Shown piece after piece: positions 7,168-32,755 of a DNA stretch of 64,000 nt (its first letter is position 1; each line of letters starts with the position of its first letter). The DNA comes from Thermoflexus hugenholtzii JAD2 (GTDB taxonomy: Bacteria; Chloroflexota; Anaerolineae; Thermoflexales; Thermoflexaceae), in assembly GCF_900187885.1 (NCBI RefSeq), contig NZ_FYEK01000044.1:62001-126000 (forward strand). Direction: 5' to 3'. A program made the position numbers and the translations under genes. The notes beneath the pieces are model-generated. The model saw only the letters and a list, made by a program, of their open reading frames with translations, was not told the DNA's origin and made no database searches.

Positions 7168-7512
7168 TCACCACATCCCCCACTCTGCCAGAGCATCCTC
7201 CTCCATCATGGAGGGATCCCACATCTCCATACTCAGGGTGACCTTCGTCGGCCGGCCGGTCACCTGCTCCGTCACGTAACGCACTTGCTCCAGCAGGTAG
7301 GGGCCGGCGGGGCAGAAGGGGGTGGTGAGGATCATGGTGATCTGCACCAAATCCGGCTGGACCTCGATGTTGCGAATCAGGCCCAGGGAGACCACGTTCA
7401 TCCCGATCTCCGGGTCCACCACGGTGCGGAGGGCCTCACGGATCTTCTGGATCAGCTCCTCCTCGGATCCAGCGGGAGAAGCGGACAGGGGAGCCACCTC
7501 GTTCTCCGGCAT
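7168..7512 (-). CDS. sufT: SufT / MIP18-type (DUF59) iron-sulfur assembly protein
   Basis: A 114-residue protein dominated by a DUF59 domain: IREALRTVVDPEIGMNVVSL near residues 25-44, then the family cysteine in TPFCPAGPYL (about residue 69). SufT-like proteins support maturation of Fe-S proteins in many Suf-type bacteria. The ATG at 7512 was preferred over an upstream TTG because GAGGAGG at 7519-7525 sits six bases before it. It lies downstream of sufR on the same strand and divergent from sufCBDS, which supports a Fe-S role. Confidence 0.85.
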   Translation of the reverse strand: MPENEVAPLSASPAGSEEELIQKIREALRTVVDPEIGMNVVSLGLIRNIEVQPDLVQITMILTTPFCPAGPYLLEQVRYVTEQVTGRPTKVTLSMEMWDPSMMEEDALAEWGMW

Positions 7513-7596
7513 CGGAGACCTCCTCAAAAAGGATGTTCGGGGGTGGAGGCAGGGGAACGGCCCTCGACTTCGGGGAGCGCGCCTCCCACCCTCGCC

Positions 7597-8265
7597 TCAC
7601 GCGGCGGAGGGATAGGAGGGCTCCTCCCTCTGGAAGCTGACGGACGAAGGCGCGGCGGTTCGGATGATGAAGGTGCAGCAGAGATCGCCGCTCAGGATGC
7701 AACTGGAACGCTCCACGTCCGCCTCCAGGGTAAGGGCGATGAGGGTTCGATCCAGGTCGCACACCTCAGGATGATGATGGACCACATAATTGTAAGGGCA
7801 ATTGTATTGATGGAGGCGGAGCTCATTGCCCAGGCGCTCCCATCGGGCCAGGAAACCTTCCTCCCCCAGCAGCTCCACCAGGGCCTCCAGCTTCTCCTCC
7901 AGAGTCCGGCAGGCCCGCACCCGCTCCCCATGCTCCACCGCGATCTCCTGCGCCATGGCGATGAAGAGACGGTGGATCTCCTCCTCGGGGAGACGGGATT
8001 TGAGCTCGTTGAGCAGACGAGCAGCCAGGCGATGGTAACCCTGGGGGAACTGGGAGAGGGCCTCCTCCCGCAGGAAGAACACCAGCCGGGGCCGGCCCAC
8101 CCCCCGCCGCTCCACCTGCGCATCCACCAACCCTTGACGCTGCAGGATATTCAGATGATAATGGACGGTGACCGGCGTAAGCCCCAGCTCCTCGGCGAGC
8201 TGCGCCGCGGTCATCCGTCCCCGTTCCTTTAAACGCTGCAGGATCTGCTGTCGGGTCTGGCTCAT
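7597..8265 (-). CDS. sufR: SufR-like Fe-S-sensing transcriptional repressor
   Basis: A 222-residue regulator. Residues 3-60 form a winged helix-turn-helix (MTAAQLAEELGLTPVTVHYHL). The C-terminal part holds clustered cysteines spaced C-x12-C-x19-C-x6-CC, suited to binding a Fe-S cluster. Known SufR proteins bind a [4Fe-4S] cluster and repress suf genes and themselves when clusters are plentiful. The ATG at 8265, with AGGTGG seven bases upstream, was chosen over the ATG at 8289, which has no site. The gene is divergent from sufC and shares a compact intergenic region with it, so direct repression of suf and autoregulation are likely. Confidence 0.87.
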   Translation of the reverse strand: MSQTRQQILQRLKERGRMTAAQLAEELGLTPVTVHYHLNILQRQGLVDAQVERRGVGRPRLVFFLREEALSQFPQGYHRLAARLLNELKSRLPEEEIHRLFIAMAQEIAVEHGERVRACRTLEEKLEALVELLGEEGFLARWERLGNELRLHQYNCPYNYVVHHHPEVCDLDRTLIALTLEADVERSSCILSGDLCCTFIIRTAAPSSVSFQREEPSYPSAA

Positions 8266-8330
8266 CGATCGCCCACCTTCCCCAGGCATCGGGTCAGGAA
8301 TCCGCCCTGCCGGGAGTCCGCATCATCCCC

Positions 8331-8359
8331 ATCTTAGCCGGTTTCCCGCCTCCTGTCAA
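8331..8359 (-). promoter_or_regulatory. sufR promoter (TTGACA-N17-TAAGAT)
   Basis: On the minus strand a perfect TTGACA occupies 8354-8359 and TAAGAT occupies 8331-8336, separated by exactly 17 bp. It points to sufR-sufT and has the same two hexamers and spacing as the sufC promoter facing the other way. Confidence 0.8.
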
Positions 8360-8383
8360 TTTTGCAGATTTTTATGAAAAGTA

Positions 8384-8412
8384 TTGACAAACACGGACGG
8401 GCGTGGTAAGAT
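8384..8412 (+). promoter_or_regulatory. sufCBDS promoter (TTGACA-N17-TAAGAT)
   Basis: TTGACA at 8384-8389, a 17-bp spacer and TAAGAT at 8407-8412. Transcription would begin near 8419, about 25 bases before the sufC ATG. TGTCAAT (8354-8360) and ATTGACA (8383-8389) form a 7-bp inverted repeat made of the two back-to-back -35 boxes; the 22 bp between them is AT-rich for this genome and is the natural place for a SufR operator. Confidence 0.85.
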
Positions 8413-8444: not shown

Positions 8445-9224
8445 ATGGAGGACGCGCTGATCATCCGGGATCTCCACGTCCGTGTGGAGGGCAAGCCGGT
8501 CCTGCGGGGGGTGGATCTAACAGTGCGCAAGGGGGAGATCCACGCCCTGATGGGCCCGAACGGTTCCGGCAAGACCACCCTGGCCTACGTCCTGATGGGA
8601 CATCCCGCTTACACGGTGGAGCGGGGGGAGGTGCTCTGGAAGGGGCAGAACGTCCTGGAGCTGCCGCCCGATGAGCGGGCCCATCTGGGGCTGTTCCTGG
8701 CCTTTCAGTATCCGGTGGCGGTGCCGGGGGTCACGGTGGCCAACTTCCTGCGCACGGCGCTGAACGAGCGCCGCAAGCGCCTGAACCCTGAGGACAAAGG
8801 GATCCCGATCCCAGAGTTCCGTAAGCTGTTGCGGGAGAAGCTGGCCATGCTGGGGCTGGAAGAGTCCTTTGCCACCCGTTATGTCAACGACGGCTTCTCC
8901 GGCGGCGAGAAGAAGCGCCTGGAGATCCTCCAGATGGCCGTGTTGCAGCCGGAGATGGCCATCCTGGATGAGACCGACTCGGGGCTGGACATCGACGGGG
9001 TGCGCACGGTGGCCGAGGGGATCAATCGGATCTTCGGCCCCCACATGGGGATCCTGCTCATCACCCACTATCAGCGGATCCTGAACTACGTGAAGCCTCA
9101 CTTCGTTCACGTGATGTATAACGGCCGCATCGTGGCCTCCGGCGGGCCGGAGCTGGCCTTGGAGCTGGAGGAGAAGGGCTACGAGTGGCTGCGAGAGCAG
9201 TTTGCCGAGCAACCCACGGCCTGA
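8445..9224 (+). CDS. sufC: SufC, Fe-S assembly ATPase
   Basis: A 259-residue ABC-type ATPase. Walker A is GPNGSGKTT (near residue 40), the signature is [10 protein letters not shown] (about 150) and Walker B ends [11 protein letters not shown] (about 175), the SufC version of this motif. SufC works with SufB and SufD as the cytosolic SufBCD scaffold on which clusters are built. The ATG at 8445 is preceded by GAGGGGGAG and was chosen over an in-frame GTG at 8430. It is the first gene of the operon, nine bases before sufB. Confidence 0.96.
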
Positions 9225-9233
9225 GGGGGGATC

Positions 9234-10640
9234 ATGGCGGCGGAGACCTTCGATCTGAGCGAGCTGGGCACGTATAAATACGGGTTCGCAATGCCCGAGC
9301 GTTACGTCTACAAGGCCCGCAAGGGCCTCTCCCGGGAGATCGTGGAAGAGATCTCCTGGCTGAAGGGGGAGCCCGACTGGATGCGGGAGTTCCGCCTGCG
9401 CGCGTTGGAGATCTTCCTCGCCAAGCCCATGCCCACCTGGGGGGCGGACCTCTCGGGGGTCAATTTCGATGACATCTACTACTACATCAAGCCCACCGAC
9501 AAGAAGAGCCGCTCGTGGGACGAGGTGCCGGAGGAGATCCGGCGCACCTTCGAGCTCCTGGGCATCCCCGAGGCCGAGCGCAAGTTCCTGGCCGGAGTGG
9601 GCGCACAGTATGAAAGCGAGGTGGTTTACCACAACCTCCAGGAGCACCTGCGCAAGCTGGGCGTGATCTTCGTGGACACCGACACGGCGGTGCGGGAGTA
9701 TCCGGACCTGGTGCGGGAATACTTCGGGACGGTGGTCCCGCCCGACGACAACAAGTTCGCCGCCCTGAACTCCGCCGTCTGGTCCGGCGGCTCCTTCATC
9801 TACGTGCCGCCGGGGGTCCACGTGGATCTCCCGCTTCAGGCCTACTTCCGCATCAACGCCCAGAACGTAGGCCAGTTCGAACGAACGCTGATCATCGCGG
9901 AGGAAGGATCTTTCGTTCATTATGTAGAGGGTTGTACTGCTCCAATATACACCACGGACTCCCTGCACAGCGCGGTGGTGGAGATCATCGTCAAGCCGGG
10001 TGCCCGGGTGCGCTACACCACGATTCAGAACTGGTCCACCAATGTCTACAACCTGGTGACCAAGCGAGCGGTGGTTTACCGGGATGCGGTGATGGAATGG
10101 GTCGACTGCAACCTGGGGTCCAAGGTGACCATGAAATACCCGAGCGTTTACCTGATGGAGCCGGGGGCCCGCGGGGAGATCCTGTCCATCGCTTTTGCGG
10201 GCCGCGGCCAGCATCAGGACGCGGGGGGGAAGGCGATCCACGCCGCTCCCCACACCCGCTCCCGCATCATCTCCAAGTCCATCAGCAAGGACGGGGGGCG
10301 CACCTCCTATCGGGGCTTGGTGCGGGTCTACCCGGGCGCCGAGGGATCCACGGTCAGCGTCAACTGCGACGCCCTGATCCTGGATGAGATCTCCCGCTCC
10401 GACACGTATCCGTATATGGAGATCGAGGAGGACAACGTCACCATCGGCCACGAGGCCACGGTGAGCAAGATCAGCGACGAGCAGCTCTTCTATCTGATGA
10501 GCCGGGGCATCCCCCAGGAAGAGGCGGCGGCGATGATCGTCACCGGCTTCGTCGAGCCCCTGGTGAAGGAACTGCCCATGGAATACGCCGTGGAGATGAA
10601 CCGGCTCATCCGCCTGCAGATGTCCGGCTCGGTGGGTTAA
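9234..10640 (+). CDS. sufB: SufB, Fe-S cluster scaffold subunit
   Basis: 468 residues, the usual SufB length, with typical segments [18 protein letters not shown] at the N-terminus, [20 protein letters not shown] in the middle and the conserved C-terminal stretch [14 protein letters not shown]. The beta-helix core holds the cluster-building surface in the SufBC2D complex. A cysteine in EGCTAPIYT (about residue 234) is the likely site for persulfide sulfur. It is separated from sufD by 168 bp that contain a strong hairpin. Confidence 0.96.
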
Positions 10641-10808: not shown

Positions 10809-12146
10809 ATGGCGGAAGCATCGAAGATTCGCGAAGCGGCCCGGGGGATCGGGCCGGAGGCATTCCAGGCCTTCCTGGCCGCCCGGGAGGAACCCGATTG
10901 GCTCCGGCAAGCCCGCCGGGAGGCCTGGGAGATCCTGCGGGAGACCCCCAAGCCCGGCCCGACCGATGAAGCATGGCGGCGCACCGACATCCAGGCCCTG
11001 GCTGTGGAAGAGCTGGCCACCGTCCTTTTCCCGGACGGATCCTCCCCGGCCCTGGGGATGCGCCAAATCGTGGAGCCGAGCGAGGACCTGTCGGGGGGGC
11101 TGCTGTTGCTCGACAGCGGGGTGGCTCTGCACTGGCTGGATGAGCGCCTGCGCCGCCGGGGCCTGATCTTCACCGATTTGATCACCGCAGCCCGAGAGCA
11201 TCCCGATCTCGTCGCCCCTTACCTGGGGCAGGTGGTCCGGCCGGGGGATGGCTTCTTCGCCGCGATGAACAGTGCCTTCTGGCGCAATGGCATCTTCTTG
11301 TATGTGCCGCGGGATCTGGAGGTCCCCTTGCCCCTGCGGGCGGTGATCGGCCTGCGGGAGCTGCCGACCGACATCTCCCGCATCCTGATCGTGGTGGAGC
11401 CGGGCGCTCGGGTGACCTTCATCGACGAGCGCCTGGCGGACGACGAGGTGGGGGCCGCCTTCCACAACGGGACGGTGGAGATCCACGTGAAGGAGAACGC
11501 CCACCTGACCTACATCGCCCTCCAGAACTGGGGCCGTTACATGTGGAACTTCACCCATGAGCGGGCCTTTGTGGACCGCGACAGCACCCTGGACTGGGTG
11601 GTGGTGGGGATGGGAGGCGGCGTCACCAAGACCTTCCTGGAGGCCGCTCTCATCGGCCGCGGGTCCACGGCCTACATGTCTGGCGTCTTCTTCCTGGACG
11701 GCCAGCAACACGCCGACTACGACACCGAGCAGGATCACATCGCGCCCTACACCAAAAGCGATCTGCTCTACAAGGTCGCCCTGAAGGATCGAGCCCGCTC
11801 CGTTTGGCAGGGGATGATCCGGGCACACCCCGGGGCCCAGAAGACCGACGCCTACCAAGCCAACCGCAACCTGATCCTCTCCCCCCATGCCCGGGCAGAC
11901 TCCATCCCCGGCTTGGAGATCATGGCCAACGATCTGCGCTGCACCCACGGGGCCACCGTCGGCCAGATCAACGAGGAAGAGCTCTTCTATCTGATGTCCC
12001 GCGGCCTCTCCCGGACGGTCGCCACGCGGCTCATCGTGGAGGGGTTCTTCGCACCCGTCCTGGACCGTATCCCCGTGGCCGATGTCCGGCGCCAAGCGGA
12101 TCATATCATCCACCGCAAGCTGGGCGTGCCACCGGAGGAGGAGTAG
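10809..12146 (+). CDS. sufD: SufD, Fe-S cluster assembly subunit
   Basis: 445 residues, a SufB paralogue with the same beta-helix core and a more divergent N-terminus. FFAAMNSAFWRNGIFLYVP (about residues 150-170) and the C-terminal stretch [16 protein letters not shown] align with SufB. SufD pairs with SufB and SufC in the scaffold and helps acquire iron. ACAGGAGG lies ahead of the ATG. The gene continues the suf operon, and sufS follows. Confidence 0.93.
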   Translation: MAEASKIREAARGIGPEAFQAFLAAREEPDWLRQARREAWEILRETPKPGPTDEAWRRTDIQALAVEELATVLFPDGSSPALGMRQIVEPSEDLSGGLLLLDSGVALHWLDERLRRRGLIFTDLITAAREHPDLVAPYLGQVVRPGDGFFAAMNSAFWRNGIFLYVPRDLEVPLPLRAVIGLRELPTDISRILIVVEPGARVTFIDERLADDEVGAAFHNGTVEIHVKENAHLTYIALQNWGRYMWNFTHERAFVDRDSTLDWVVVGMGGGVTKTFLEAALIGRGSTAYMSGVFFLDGQQHADYDTEQDHIAPYTKSDLLYKVALKDRARSVWQGMIRAHPGAQKTDAYQANRNLILSPHARADSIPGLEIMANDLRCTHGATVGQINEEELFYLMSRGLSRTVATRLIVEGFFAPVLDRIPVADVRRQADHIIHRKLGVPPEEE

Positions 12147-12273
12147 GGGCGATCCGGGAGGGGGGTCGCCCCTACCCGATTCACCTAAAATAGGGGATTA
12201 GGGAGCATTGATGCAGGACGGCCCGGCCCTTACAGGGGAACGTTTATCCGGGGAACATGTGGGGAGGACCCCT

Positions 12274-13527
12274 ATGGGAAGCGTGGGGCTACAAGCCATC
12301 CTGGATGTGGAACGGATCCGGGCGGATTTCCCCATCCTCCACCAGACCGTGAACGGGAAACCCCTGGTGTTTTTGGACAGCGCGGCCAGCTCTCAGAAGC
12401 CCATCCCGGTGATCGAGGCGATGAACGCTTATTACCGCACCACCCACGCCAACGTCCACCGGGGGGTCTACCGCCTGAGCGAGCAGGCCACCGCCCTGTA
12501 TGAGGAGGCCCGGCGCAAGATCGCCGCCTTCATCGGCGCCGCCTCCCCTAAAGAGATCATCTTCACCCGCAACGCCACCGAGGCCATCAACCTGGTGGCC
12601 TACGCCTGGGCCCGCCCCTTCCTGCGGGAGGGAGACGAGATCCTCCTCACGGAGATGGAGCACCACAGCAACCTGGTCCCCTGGTTCCTGGTGGCGCAGG
12701 AGAAGGGGCTCCGCATCCGATATATCCCCATCGACGAGGAAGGCCGCCTGCGGCTGGATCTGCTGGATGCGTTGATCACCGAGCGGACCCGGCTGGTGGC
12801 GGTGACGATGATGTCGAACGTGCTGGGGACCATCAACCCCCTCCGTCCGATCATCGAGAAGGCCCACGCGGTGGGGGCTGTCGTGTTGGTGGACGGCGCC
12901 CAGGGGGTTCCGCATCTCCCGGTGAACGTCCAGGAGCTGGGATGCGATTTCCTGGCCTTCTCCGGCCATAAGATGTGCGGCCCCACCGGGATCGGGGTGC
13001 TGTGGGGGCGGCGCGAGCTCCTGGAGGCTATGCCCCCCTTCCTGGGTGGCGGCGACATGATCCGCCGGGTCACCTTCGAGGGCGCGGAATGGAACGAGCT
13101 GCCCTACAAGTTCGAAGCGGGAACCCCGGCCATCGCCGAGGCCATCGGGCTGGGGGCGGCAGTGGATTACCTGAGCCAAATCGGGCTGGAGGCCATCCAC
13201 CGCCATGAGCAGGCCCTGGCCGCCTACGCCATGGAGCGCTTGAGCGAGATCCCCGGCCTTCGCATCGTGGGGCCTCCCCCTGCGGAGCGCGGCGGCGTGG
13301 TGGCCTTCGCTATGGATCGCATCCATCCCCACGACATCGCCACCATCCTGGATCGGGAGGGCATCTGTATCCGGGCCGGCCACCACTGCGCGATGCCGCT
13401 CCATGAGCGACTGGGCCTCACCGCCACCGCCCGGGCCAGTTTCTACCTCTACAACACCATGGAGGAGGTGGATCGGCTGGCCGAGGGGCTGGAGATCGTG
13501 CGCCGGACCTTCCGGCGTCCAGCCTGA
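12274..13527 (+). CDS. sufS: SufS, cysteine desulfurase (group II)
   Basis: 417 residues from the ATG at 12274, chosen over upstream in-frame starts because GGGGAGG lies six bases before it and because SufS proteins normally begin just before VERIRADFPIL. The PLP lysine is in FSGHKMCGPTGIG (about residue 232) and the catalytic cysteine in GHHCAMPLHERL (about 372). It releases sulfur from cysteine as an enzyme-bound persulfide for the SufBCD scaffold. No sufE or sufU acceptor is visible in this operon. It ends five bases from the convergent clpX. Confidence 0.94.
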   Translation: MGSVGLQAILDVERIRADFPILHQTVNGKPLVFLDSAASSQKPIPVIEAMNAYYRTTHANVHRGVYRLSEQATALYEEARRKIAAFIGAASPKEIIFTRNATEAINLVAYAWARPFLREGDEILLTEMEHHSNLVPWFLVAQEKGLRIRYIPIDEEGRLRLDLLDALITERTRLVAVTMMSNVLGTINPLRPIIEKAHAVGAVVLVDGAQGVPHLPVNVQELGCDFLAFSGHKMCGPTGIGVLWGRRELLEAMPPFLGGGDMIRRVTFEGAEWNELPYKFEAGTPAIAEAIGLGAAVDYLSQIGLEAIHRHEQALAAYAMERLSEIPGLRIVGPPPAERGGVVAFAMDRIHPHDIATILDREGICIRAGHHCAMPLHERLGLTATARASFYLYNTMEEVDRLAEGLEIVRRTFRRPA

Positions 13528-32726: not shown

Positions 32727-32755
32727 ATCTTAGGAGGGGAGGAAGACGATGTCAA
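32727..32755 (-). promoter_or_regulatory. phn operon promoter (TTGACA-N17-TAAGAT)
   Basis: Minus-strand TTGACA at 32750-32755 and TAAGAT at 32727-32732, 17 bp apart, about 42 bp before phnD. The hexamers are identical to those of the suf promoters. Confidence 0.8.

Follow-up and report, generated by a model that had tools for sequence, protein, structure and literature searches.

A back-to-back promoter pair enclosing one predicted shared operator between a SufR-like regulator gene and the suf operon of Thermoflexus hugenholtzii

The window analyzed here is a 64,000-nucleotide stretch of the Thermoflexus hugenholtzii JAD2 genome (contig NZ_FYEK01000044.1, positions 62,001 to 126,000), and it contains a SUF locus in which an operon with the gene order sufC-sufB-sufD-sufS runs to the right and a gene for a SufR-like regulator runs to the left (Table 1). 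A SufT-like gene lies 69 bp behind sufR and is probably co-transcribed with it. Since a PF01883 gene follows sufR here and adjoins it at 28 of the 30 class loci compared (L001 and L005-L033), the left-hand transcript is probably also a SUF operon. The start of sufR is probably the ATG at 8265 and not the one at 8289, the former being favored because conservation begins only at Met9. The SufB encoded in the window carries no intein. Among the Thermoflexus relatives, SufB is split by in-frame inteins at L036:1437-3917 (-), L038:1379-3859 (-), and L035 225-3869, the last apparently with two insertions; the LAGLIDADG domains of these inteins score over cut-off and the Intein_splicing domains below theirs. 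Two Thermoflexus genomes, G078 and G102, have neither the SufR orthologue nor this SufC at E <= 1e-70.

Table 1. Features of the suf locus in the window, with positions counted from the first nucleotide of the window.
Feature	Position	Strand	Evidence
SufT-like gene, PF01883 (FeS_assembly_P)	7168..7527	-	E 1.5e-17
SufR-like regulator	7597..8265	-	TIGR02702 E 3.3e-25; HTH_20; start from conservation
-10 box, sufR promoter, TAAGAT	8331..8336	-	read in sequence
-35 box, sufR promoter, TTGACA	8354..8359	-	kept in Thermoflexus and class-wide
Proposed shared operator, 24-bp A/T-rich spacer TTTTGCAGATTTTTATGAAAAGTA	8360..8383	.	conservation in genus and class motif
-35 box, sufC promoter, TTGACA	8384..8389	+	read in sequence
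-10 box, sufC promoter, TAAGAT	8407..8412	+	TG two bases upstream
sufC	8445..9224	+	TIGR01978 over cut-off
sufB	9234..10640	+	TIGR01980 over cut-off
sufD	10809..12146	+	TIGR01981 over cut-off
sufS cysteine desulfurase	12208..13527	+	TIGR01979 over cut-off

The regulator is linked to the SUF operon by the divergent placement of sufCBDS and sufR. It matches TIGR02702 over nearly its full length with 89 bits; as the curated cut-off of 178.8 bits is not reached, we use the name SufR-like for it and do not class it with cyanobacterial SufR. The N-terminal winged helix-turn-helix is recognized by PF12840 and PF01022 over cut-off, and a search of the PDB for a structural template gave only weak ArsR-like matches (PH1932, E 4.8e-07). 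Four cysteines, C164, C177, C197, and C205 (numbered along the longer ORF 7597-8289), are invariant in all 25 aligned relatives, the alignment covering 25 of 30 proteins after exclusion of L014, L015, L022, L025, and L032, which were cut by the start estimate. Three of them, C164-X12-C177-X27-C205, reproduce the C-X12-C-X27-C spacing of SufR cluster cysteines, which is shared by M. tuberculosis Rv1460, where C203, C216, and C244 are described as having been shown necessary (PMC6034842). Compared with the cyanobacterial pattern, given as C-X12-C-X13-C-X14-C in PMC8593673, the third cysteine differs, C197 standing 19 residues after C177 in 25/25 proteins. The Thermoflexus relatives carry the regulator at 88-94 percent identity. 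A second SufR-like gene in the same genome (L002, C22:44650-45258) is about 40 percent identical and has no motif upstream of the kind described below.

Between the two start codons, positions 8331-8412 are occupied by two back-to-back TTGACA-17-TAAGAT promoters whose -35 boxes stand 24 bp apart (8360-8383). The identical -35 boxes, identical -10 boxes, 17-bp spacing, and 24-bp separation listed in the initial annotation are all confirmed by the coordinates. Both promoters are near consensus (10/12 matches each), and the pair is not a product of chance: when the 179-bp intergenic region was shuffled 20,000 times under a first-order Markov model, a back-to-back pair with at least 10/12 matches on each side arose 0 times and a single plus-strand promoter of that quality 95 times. 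The arrangement TGTCAA-N(10-40)-TTGACA occurs at two places in the 3.2-Mb genome, the suf intergenic region and a carotenoid locus. At the latter (L159 near 1501-1530; C3:325698-325727), the -35 boxes are 18 bp apart and the pair is flanked by apparent phytoene synthase-like and desaturase-like genes. A shared -10 box alone is no mark of pairing, because an exact TTGACA-17-TAAGAT recurs in the window at 32727-32755 (-), just upstream of a gene for a substrate-binding protein that is followed by an ABC ATPase resembling those of phosphonate transporters.

Within Thermoflexus, the 82-bp unit that was put forward for comparison in relatives keeps its length while the leaders differ in length by about 190 bp. 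In a gapless alignment of seven Thermoflexus sequences centered on the site, invariant columns make up 29 of the 36 at 8354-8389; for the leaders of the same seven sequences, they number 1/37 on the sufR side and 7/31 on the sufC side. The promoter pair is a real and old feature. The variant of the spacer found in the window, AGATTTTTATGAAAAGTATTGACA, is present in a single copy in its genome even when 3 mismatches are allowed. A palindromic operator in the window was rejected, the central 18 bp of the spacer holding 6/18 palindromic letters, which is the chance level (random 6.3, sd 2.9).

We surveyed the class using 90 regions that lie upstream of SufR-like genes, drawn from 20 families and the best-scoring among 299 matching genomes; these comprise the 30 loci named above and 60 further listed homologues, with families f27 and f35 dominating the counts. 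A divergent sufC lies within 700 bp in 49 of the 90 regions, L006 being left out of the 49 for no other reason than that its sufC extends past the contig end, and in 48 of these 49 the best promoters are paired back to back, the exception being L113, which has no proper promoter pair. Promoter spacers of 17 bp are found nearly throughout the 48 paired regions, and the pairs match the consensus at 19-24 of 24 letters. The gap between the -35 boxes is 24 bp in 19 regions of six families (f1, f27, f34, f53, f55, and f59), a count that includes L029 by way of its sufC-side copy. It is 33 bp in 25 regions, 32 bp in 2, and 34 bp in 1, all 28 of which belong to family f35, and 26 bp in 1 region (f60). 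No promoter was obtained for L009, which has an odd sequence at a contig edge, or for the f45 loci. The spacer motif appears to be class-wide, with specific letters, C and G included, kept across families.

The inverted repeat TGTCAAT...ATTGACA that had been singled out earlier is present, but it amounts to the two -35 boxes plus one base, and we rejected it as the operator because it can be separated from the spacer where sufR and sufC lie apart. Fifteen sufR promoters of family f27 whose sufC lies elsewhere (L020, L021, L023, L024, L026-L028, L030, L031, L084, L086, L087, L089, L090, and L100) keep TGTCAATAT-nnTAGATAAWTATSATAAATAT, usually without the right-hand TTGAC, and nine separate f27 sufC promoters (L040-L048) keep AATATACTAGAAAAATATSATAAATATTGAC with the left TGTCA gone. 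L029 carries two separate full copies, one each at sufR and sufC. In family f21, the site at sufR, read directly, is inverted, which turns the same end of it towards the -35 box at sufR as at sufC. In L049 (f52), also read directly, sufC has a TTGACT-17-TAGAAT promoter whose 17-bp spacer contains the site, a position that would suit a repressor. Because it is kept, flipped, duplicated, or relocated independently of them, the inner spacer behaves like an element in its own right that can move without the -35 boxes.

Across 396 genomes of the class, the pattern TAGAWWWWTATSATAAATATTGAC was found at 48 places with at most 2 mismatches, and its reversed control at 0. Judged by position, 44 of these 48 places precede sufR or sufC, and another precedes an A-type carrier gene (L155, PF01521); the remaining three lie at a DtxR-type gene (L157), in a recombinase region (L053), and at an unassigned place (L082). 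As the pattern was drawn from family f27, its f27 matches are expected, and those in f1, f21, f35, and f53 were not built in. With one mismatch allowed, the pattern TAGAWWWWTATSATAAAT, which contains no -35 letters, was found at 27 places spread over 17 genomes; sufR or sufC accounts for 25 of these places, and the reversed control was found at 1. The window's own copy matches the class consensus poorly and was not reached by the class pattern at 2 mismatches, and what ties it to the class motif is therefore its position, its spacing, and a partial likeness. The A-type Fe-S carrier genes behind the motif, at L155:1085-1498 (-) by PF01521 and at L112 224-691 by likeness, the latter divergent from sufR, are probable further members of the regulon. 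In L157, a weak motif near 1535 is close to the start of the DtxR-type iron regulator gene.

A weight matrix trained on the sufR-side and divergent sites, with the scored family left out, provides a comparison of genomes with and without the regulator. This SufC at E <= 1e-70 is present in 14 of 16 genomes with a good SufR-like match, the other two having it in fragments (L153 and L154), and in 8 of 30 genomes without a good one. With the regulator present, all 14 sufC upstream regions score 12.8-25.3 bits; one of these positives, L039, is an ordinary divergent region on a broken contig, the best score is on the opposite strand for L047, L048, and L049, and the -35 box of L048 is one base off. 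Without the regulator, the 8 sufC regions score -6.3 to 12.0 bits and none reaches 12.8, although these genomes belong to other families and phylogeny is not fully separated from regulation in this comparison. The site at L148, with 12.0 bits, comes near the lowest positive but does not adjoin a -35 box. The one at L144 (G338) is weak at 6.2 bits and adjoins TTGACA; this decayed-looking site may be the relic of a lost sufR. The sufC of L144 stands beside a divergent PF01883 gene, with no SufR-like gene seen between them.

Upstream of the more distant SufR-like genes of the class (f10, f18, f23, f38 in part, f40, and f45), no clear site was seen. Beyond the class, SufR-like homologues (E <= 1e-30) in 20 genomes of the same phylum supplied 21 upstream regions, none of which showed a divergent sufC or a clear motif; CAAC-N6-GTTG turned up once, beside a start codon, at chance level. 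The system is therefore not universal.

Taken together, we consider it likely that 8354-8389 is a two-way promoter with one shared predicted operator, the 24-bp spacer, which is bound by the SufR-like protein and mediates Fe-S-responsive co-repression. That one bound SufR-like protein could act in both directions, as had been suggested, is well supported by the conserved site between the -35 boxes, which follows sufR and not Fur, also where the genes are separated; the part of the suggestion that fell away is the operator, which we place in the spacer and not in the -35 repeat. The initial annotation thus had the right regulator and roughly the right logic, with the wrong part of the sequence as the operator. 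In the proposed mechanism, two housekeeping-type promoters face apart and the spacer between them would serve as the binding site of the SufR-like protein encoded on the left. The Fe-S-loaded regulator would bind the spacer, cover both -35 boxes, and silence sufR with its SufT-like neighbor at the same time as sufCBDS. A shortage of clusters, or damage to them, would make the regulator release, and both transcripts would rise until newly made clusters restored repression. We infer the direction of regulation and its dependence on the cluster from the position of the site over or between promoter elements and from the characterized SufR proteins, which are described as repressors (PMC13421787, PMC8593673, PMC6034842). 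With the -35 boxes just 24 bp apart, two polymerases may exclude each other, and such exclusion would give alternating expression and not the "balanced" expression that had been envisaged.

As for the inner structure of the operator, it is conceivable, if rather doubtful, that it is made up of successive 9-bp units that keep register with the -35 boxes, TGTCAATAT|TATAGATAA|TTATGATAA|ATATTGACA, with two units in most families and three in f35. Read this way, one added unit would place the promoters exactly 9 bp further apart (24 to 33). The self-match at lag 9 is the highest of lags 4-14 in both spacer classes, at 0.56 and 0.62, with the next highest at 0.49 and 0.56, respectively. In family f35, the two units nearest sufC form a better dyad than is seen in the window, with a mean of 12.6/18 letters (random 6.3, sd 2.9). 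If the unit reading were true, the SufR-like protein would be loaded one unit at a time, with the unit count governing the tightness and cooperativity with which both promoters are closed.

An alternative is that the spacer is a shared UP element through which the alpha subunits of RNA polymerase strengthen both promoters, with no involvement of SufR. UP elements sit directly upstream of the -35 box, where this A/T-rich spacer also lies with respect to each promoter. We nevertheless regard this alternative as unlikely, since specific letters that include C and G are conserved across families, the motif is nearly restricted to suf promoters and is missing at the sufC of genomes lacking SufR, and the L049 site is within its promoter's spacer and not upstream of it.

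In another alternative, regulator and site are the same as under co-repression, but SufR bound to the spacer would activate transcription or push the two genes in opposite directions, with the tightly packed polymerases perhaps making the promoters compete. The center of the site is near -48 of both predicted starts, a position used by some activators, and the 24 bp available are fewer than the upstream footprints of two polymerases occupy. However, both promoters are so near consensus (10/12 in the window; 19-24/24 for the pairs in the 48 regions) that an activator should not be needed, and the characterized SufR proteins, per PMC13421787, PMC8593673, and PMC6034842, repress. The L049 site inside the promoter spacer also speaks against activation, and we judge this alternative improbable.

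Weakest is an alternative in which a different iron regulator, most obviously Fur, recognizes the site. Fur boxes are GATAAT repeats, and the motif does contain GATAAT-like A/T-rich letters; Fur-family genes occur in 23 of the 26 genomes examined for them, the window's genome having three, and a weak site was noted near the DtxR-type gene of L157. However, G148 and G232, which are 98 and 97 percent complete and have no Fur-family match, carry the motif at sufR as well as at sufC, all 8 genomes lacking SufR and lacking the motif at sufC have Fur, and none of the motif places showed an iron-uptake gene, so that we rejected Fur as the main reader and hold any such regulator to be very improbable.

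The best reading, co-repression by a SufR-like Fe-S repressor, would mean that the regulator uses a lineage-specific shared operator and that part of the Anaerolineae share a SufR-like circuit whose operator is a different one and whose two-way promoter has a rigid geometry. Its variants, with the genes together or apart, gaps of 24 or 33 bp, and the site flipped, duplicated, or within a promoter, offer natural experiments on how an Fe-S sensor reads DNA, and the motif can be used to search a little-studied phylum for iron-sulfur regulons. Our searches of open-licence papers gave nothing pertinent on SufR in Chloroflexi or Anaerolineae or, among the papers listed, on the suf genes of Thermoflexus.

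The closest parallels come from other phyla. In Synechocystis PCC 6803, sufR is divergent from sufBCDS, and SufR, an Fe-S winged-helix protein, is described as repressing both the operon and itself (PMC13421787, PMC8593673); the divergent suf layout and the C-X12-C spacing described for cyanobacterial SufR are shared by the Thermoflexus regulator. The published cyanobacterial operator is CAAC-N6-GTTG, with separate high- and low-affinity sites reported for sufBCDS and sufR (PMC8593673, PMC6034842), whereas the Thermoflexus region has one candidate site between the -35 boxes and no CAAC-N6-GTTG. The latter had no match in the window's suf intergenic region even at one mismatch; among the 90 class regions it was found exactly in none, on which ground we rejected it as the operator here, and with one mismatch in 5, against 5.75 expected. 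In the accounts of M. tuberculosis and S. avermitilis, sufR heads the suf operon, whereas here sufR and sufC are divergent, and while SufR of S. avermitilis binds CAAC-N6-GTTG over the -10 box (PMC11995493), the candidate site described here abuts the -35 boxes. The principle is thus known from other bacteria, and the docking sequence differs from the published SufR operator.
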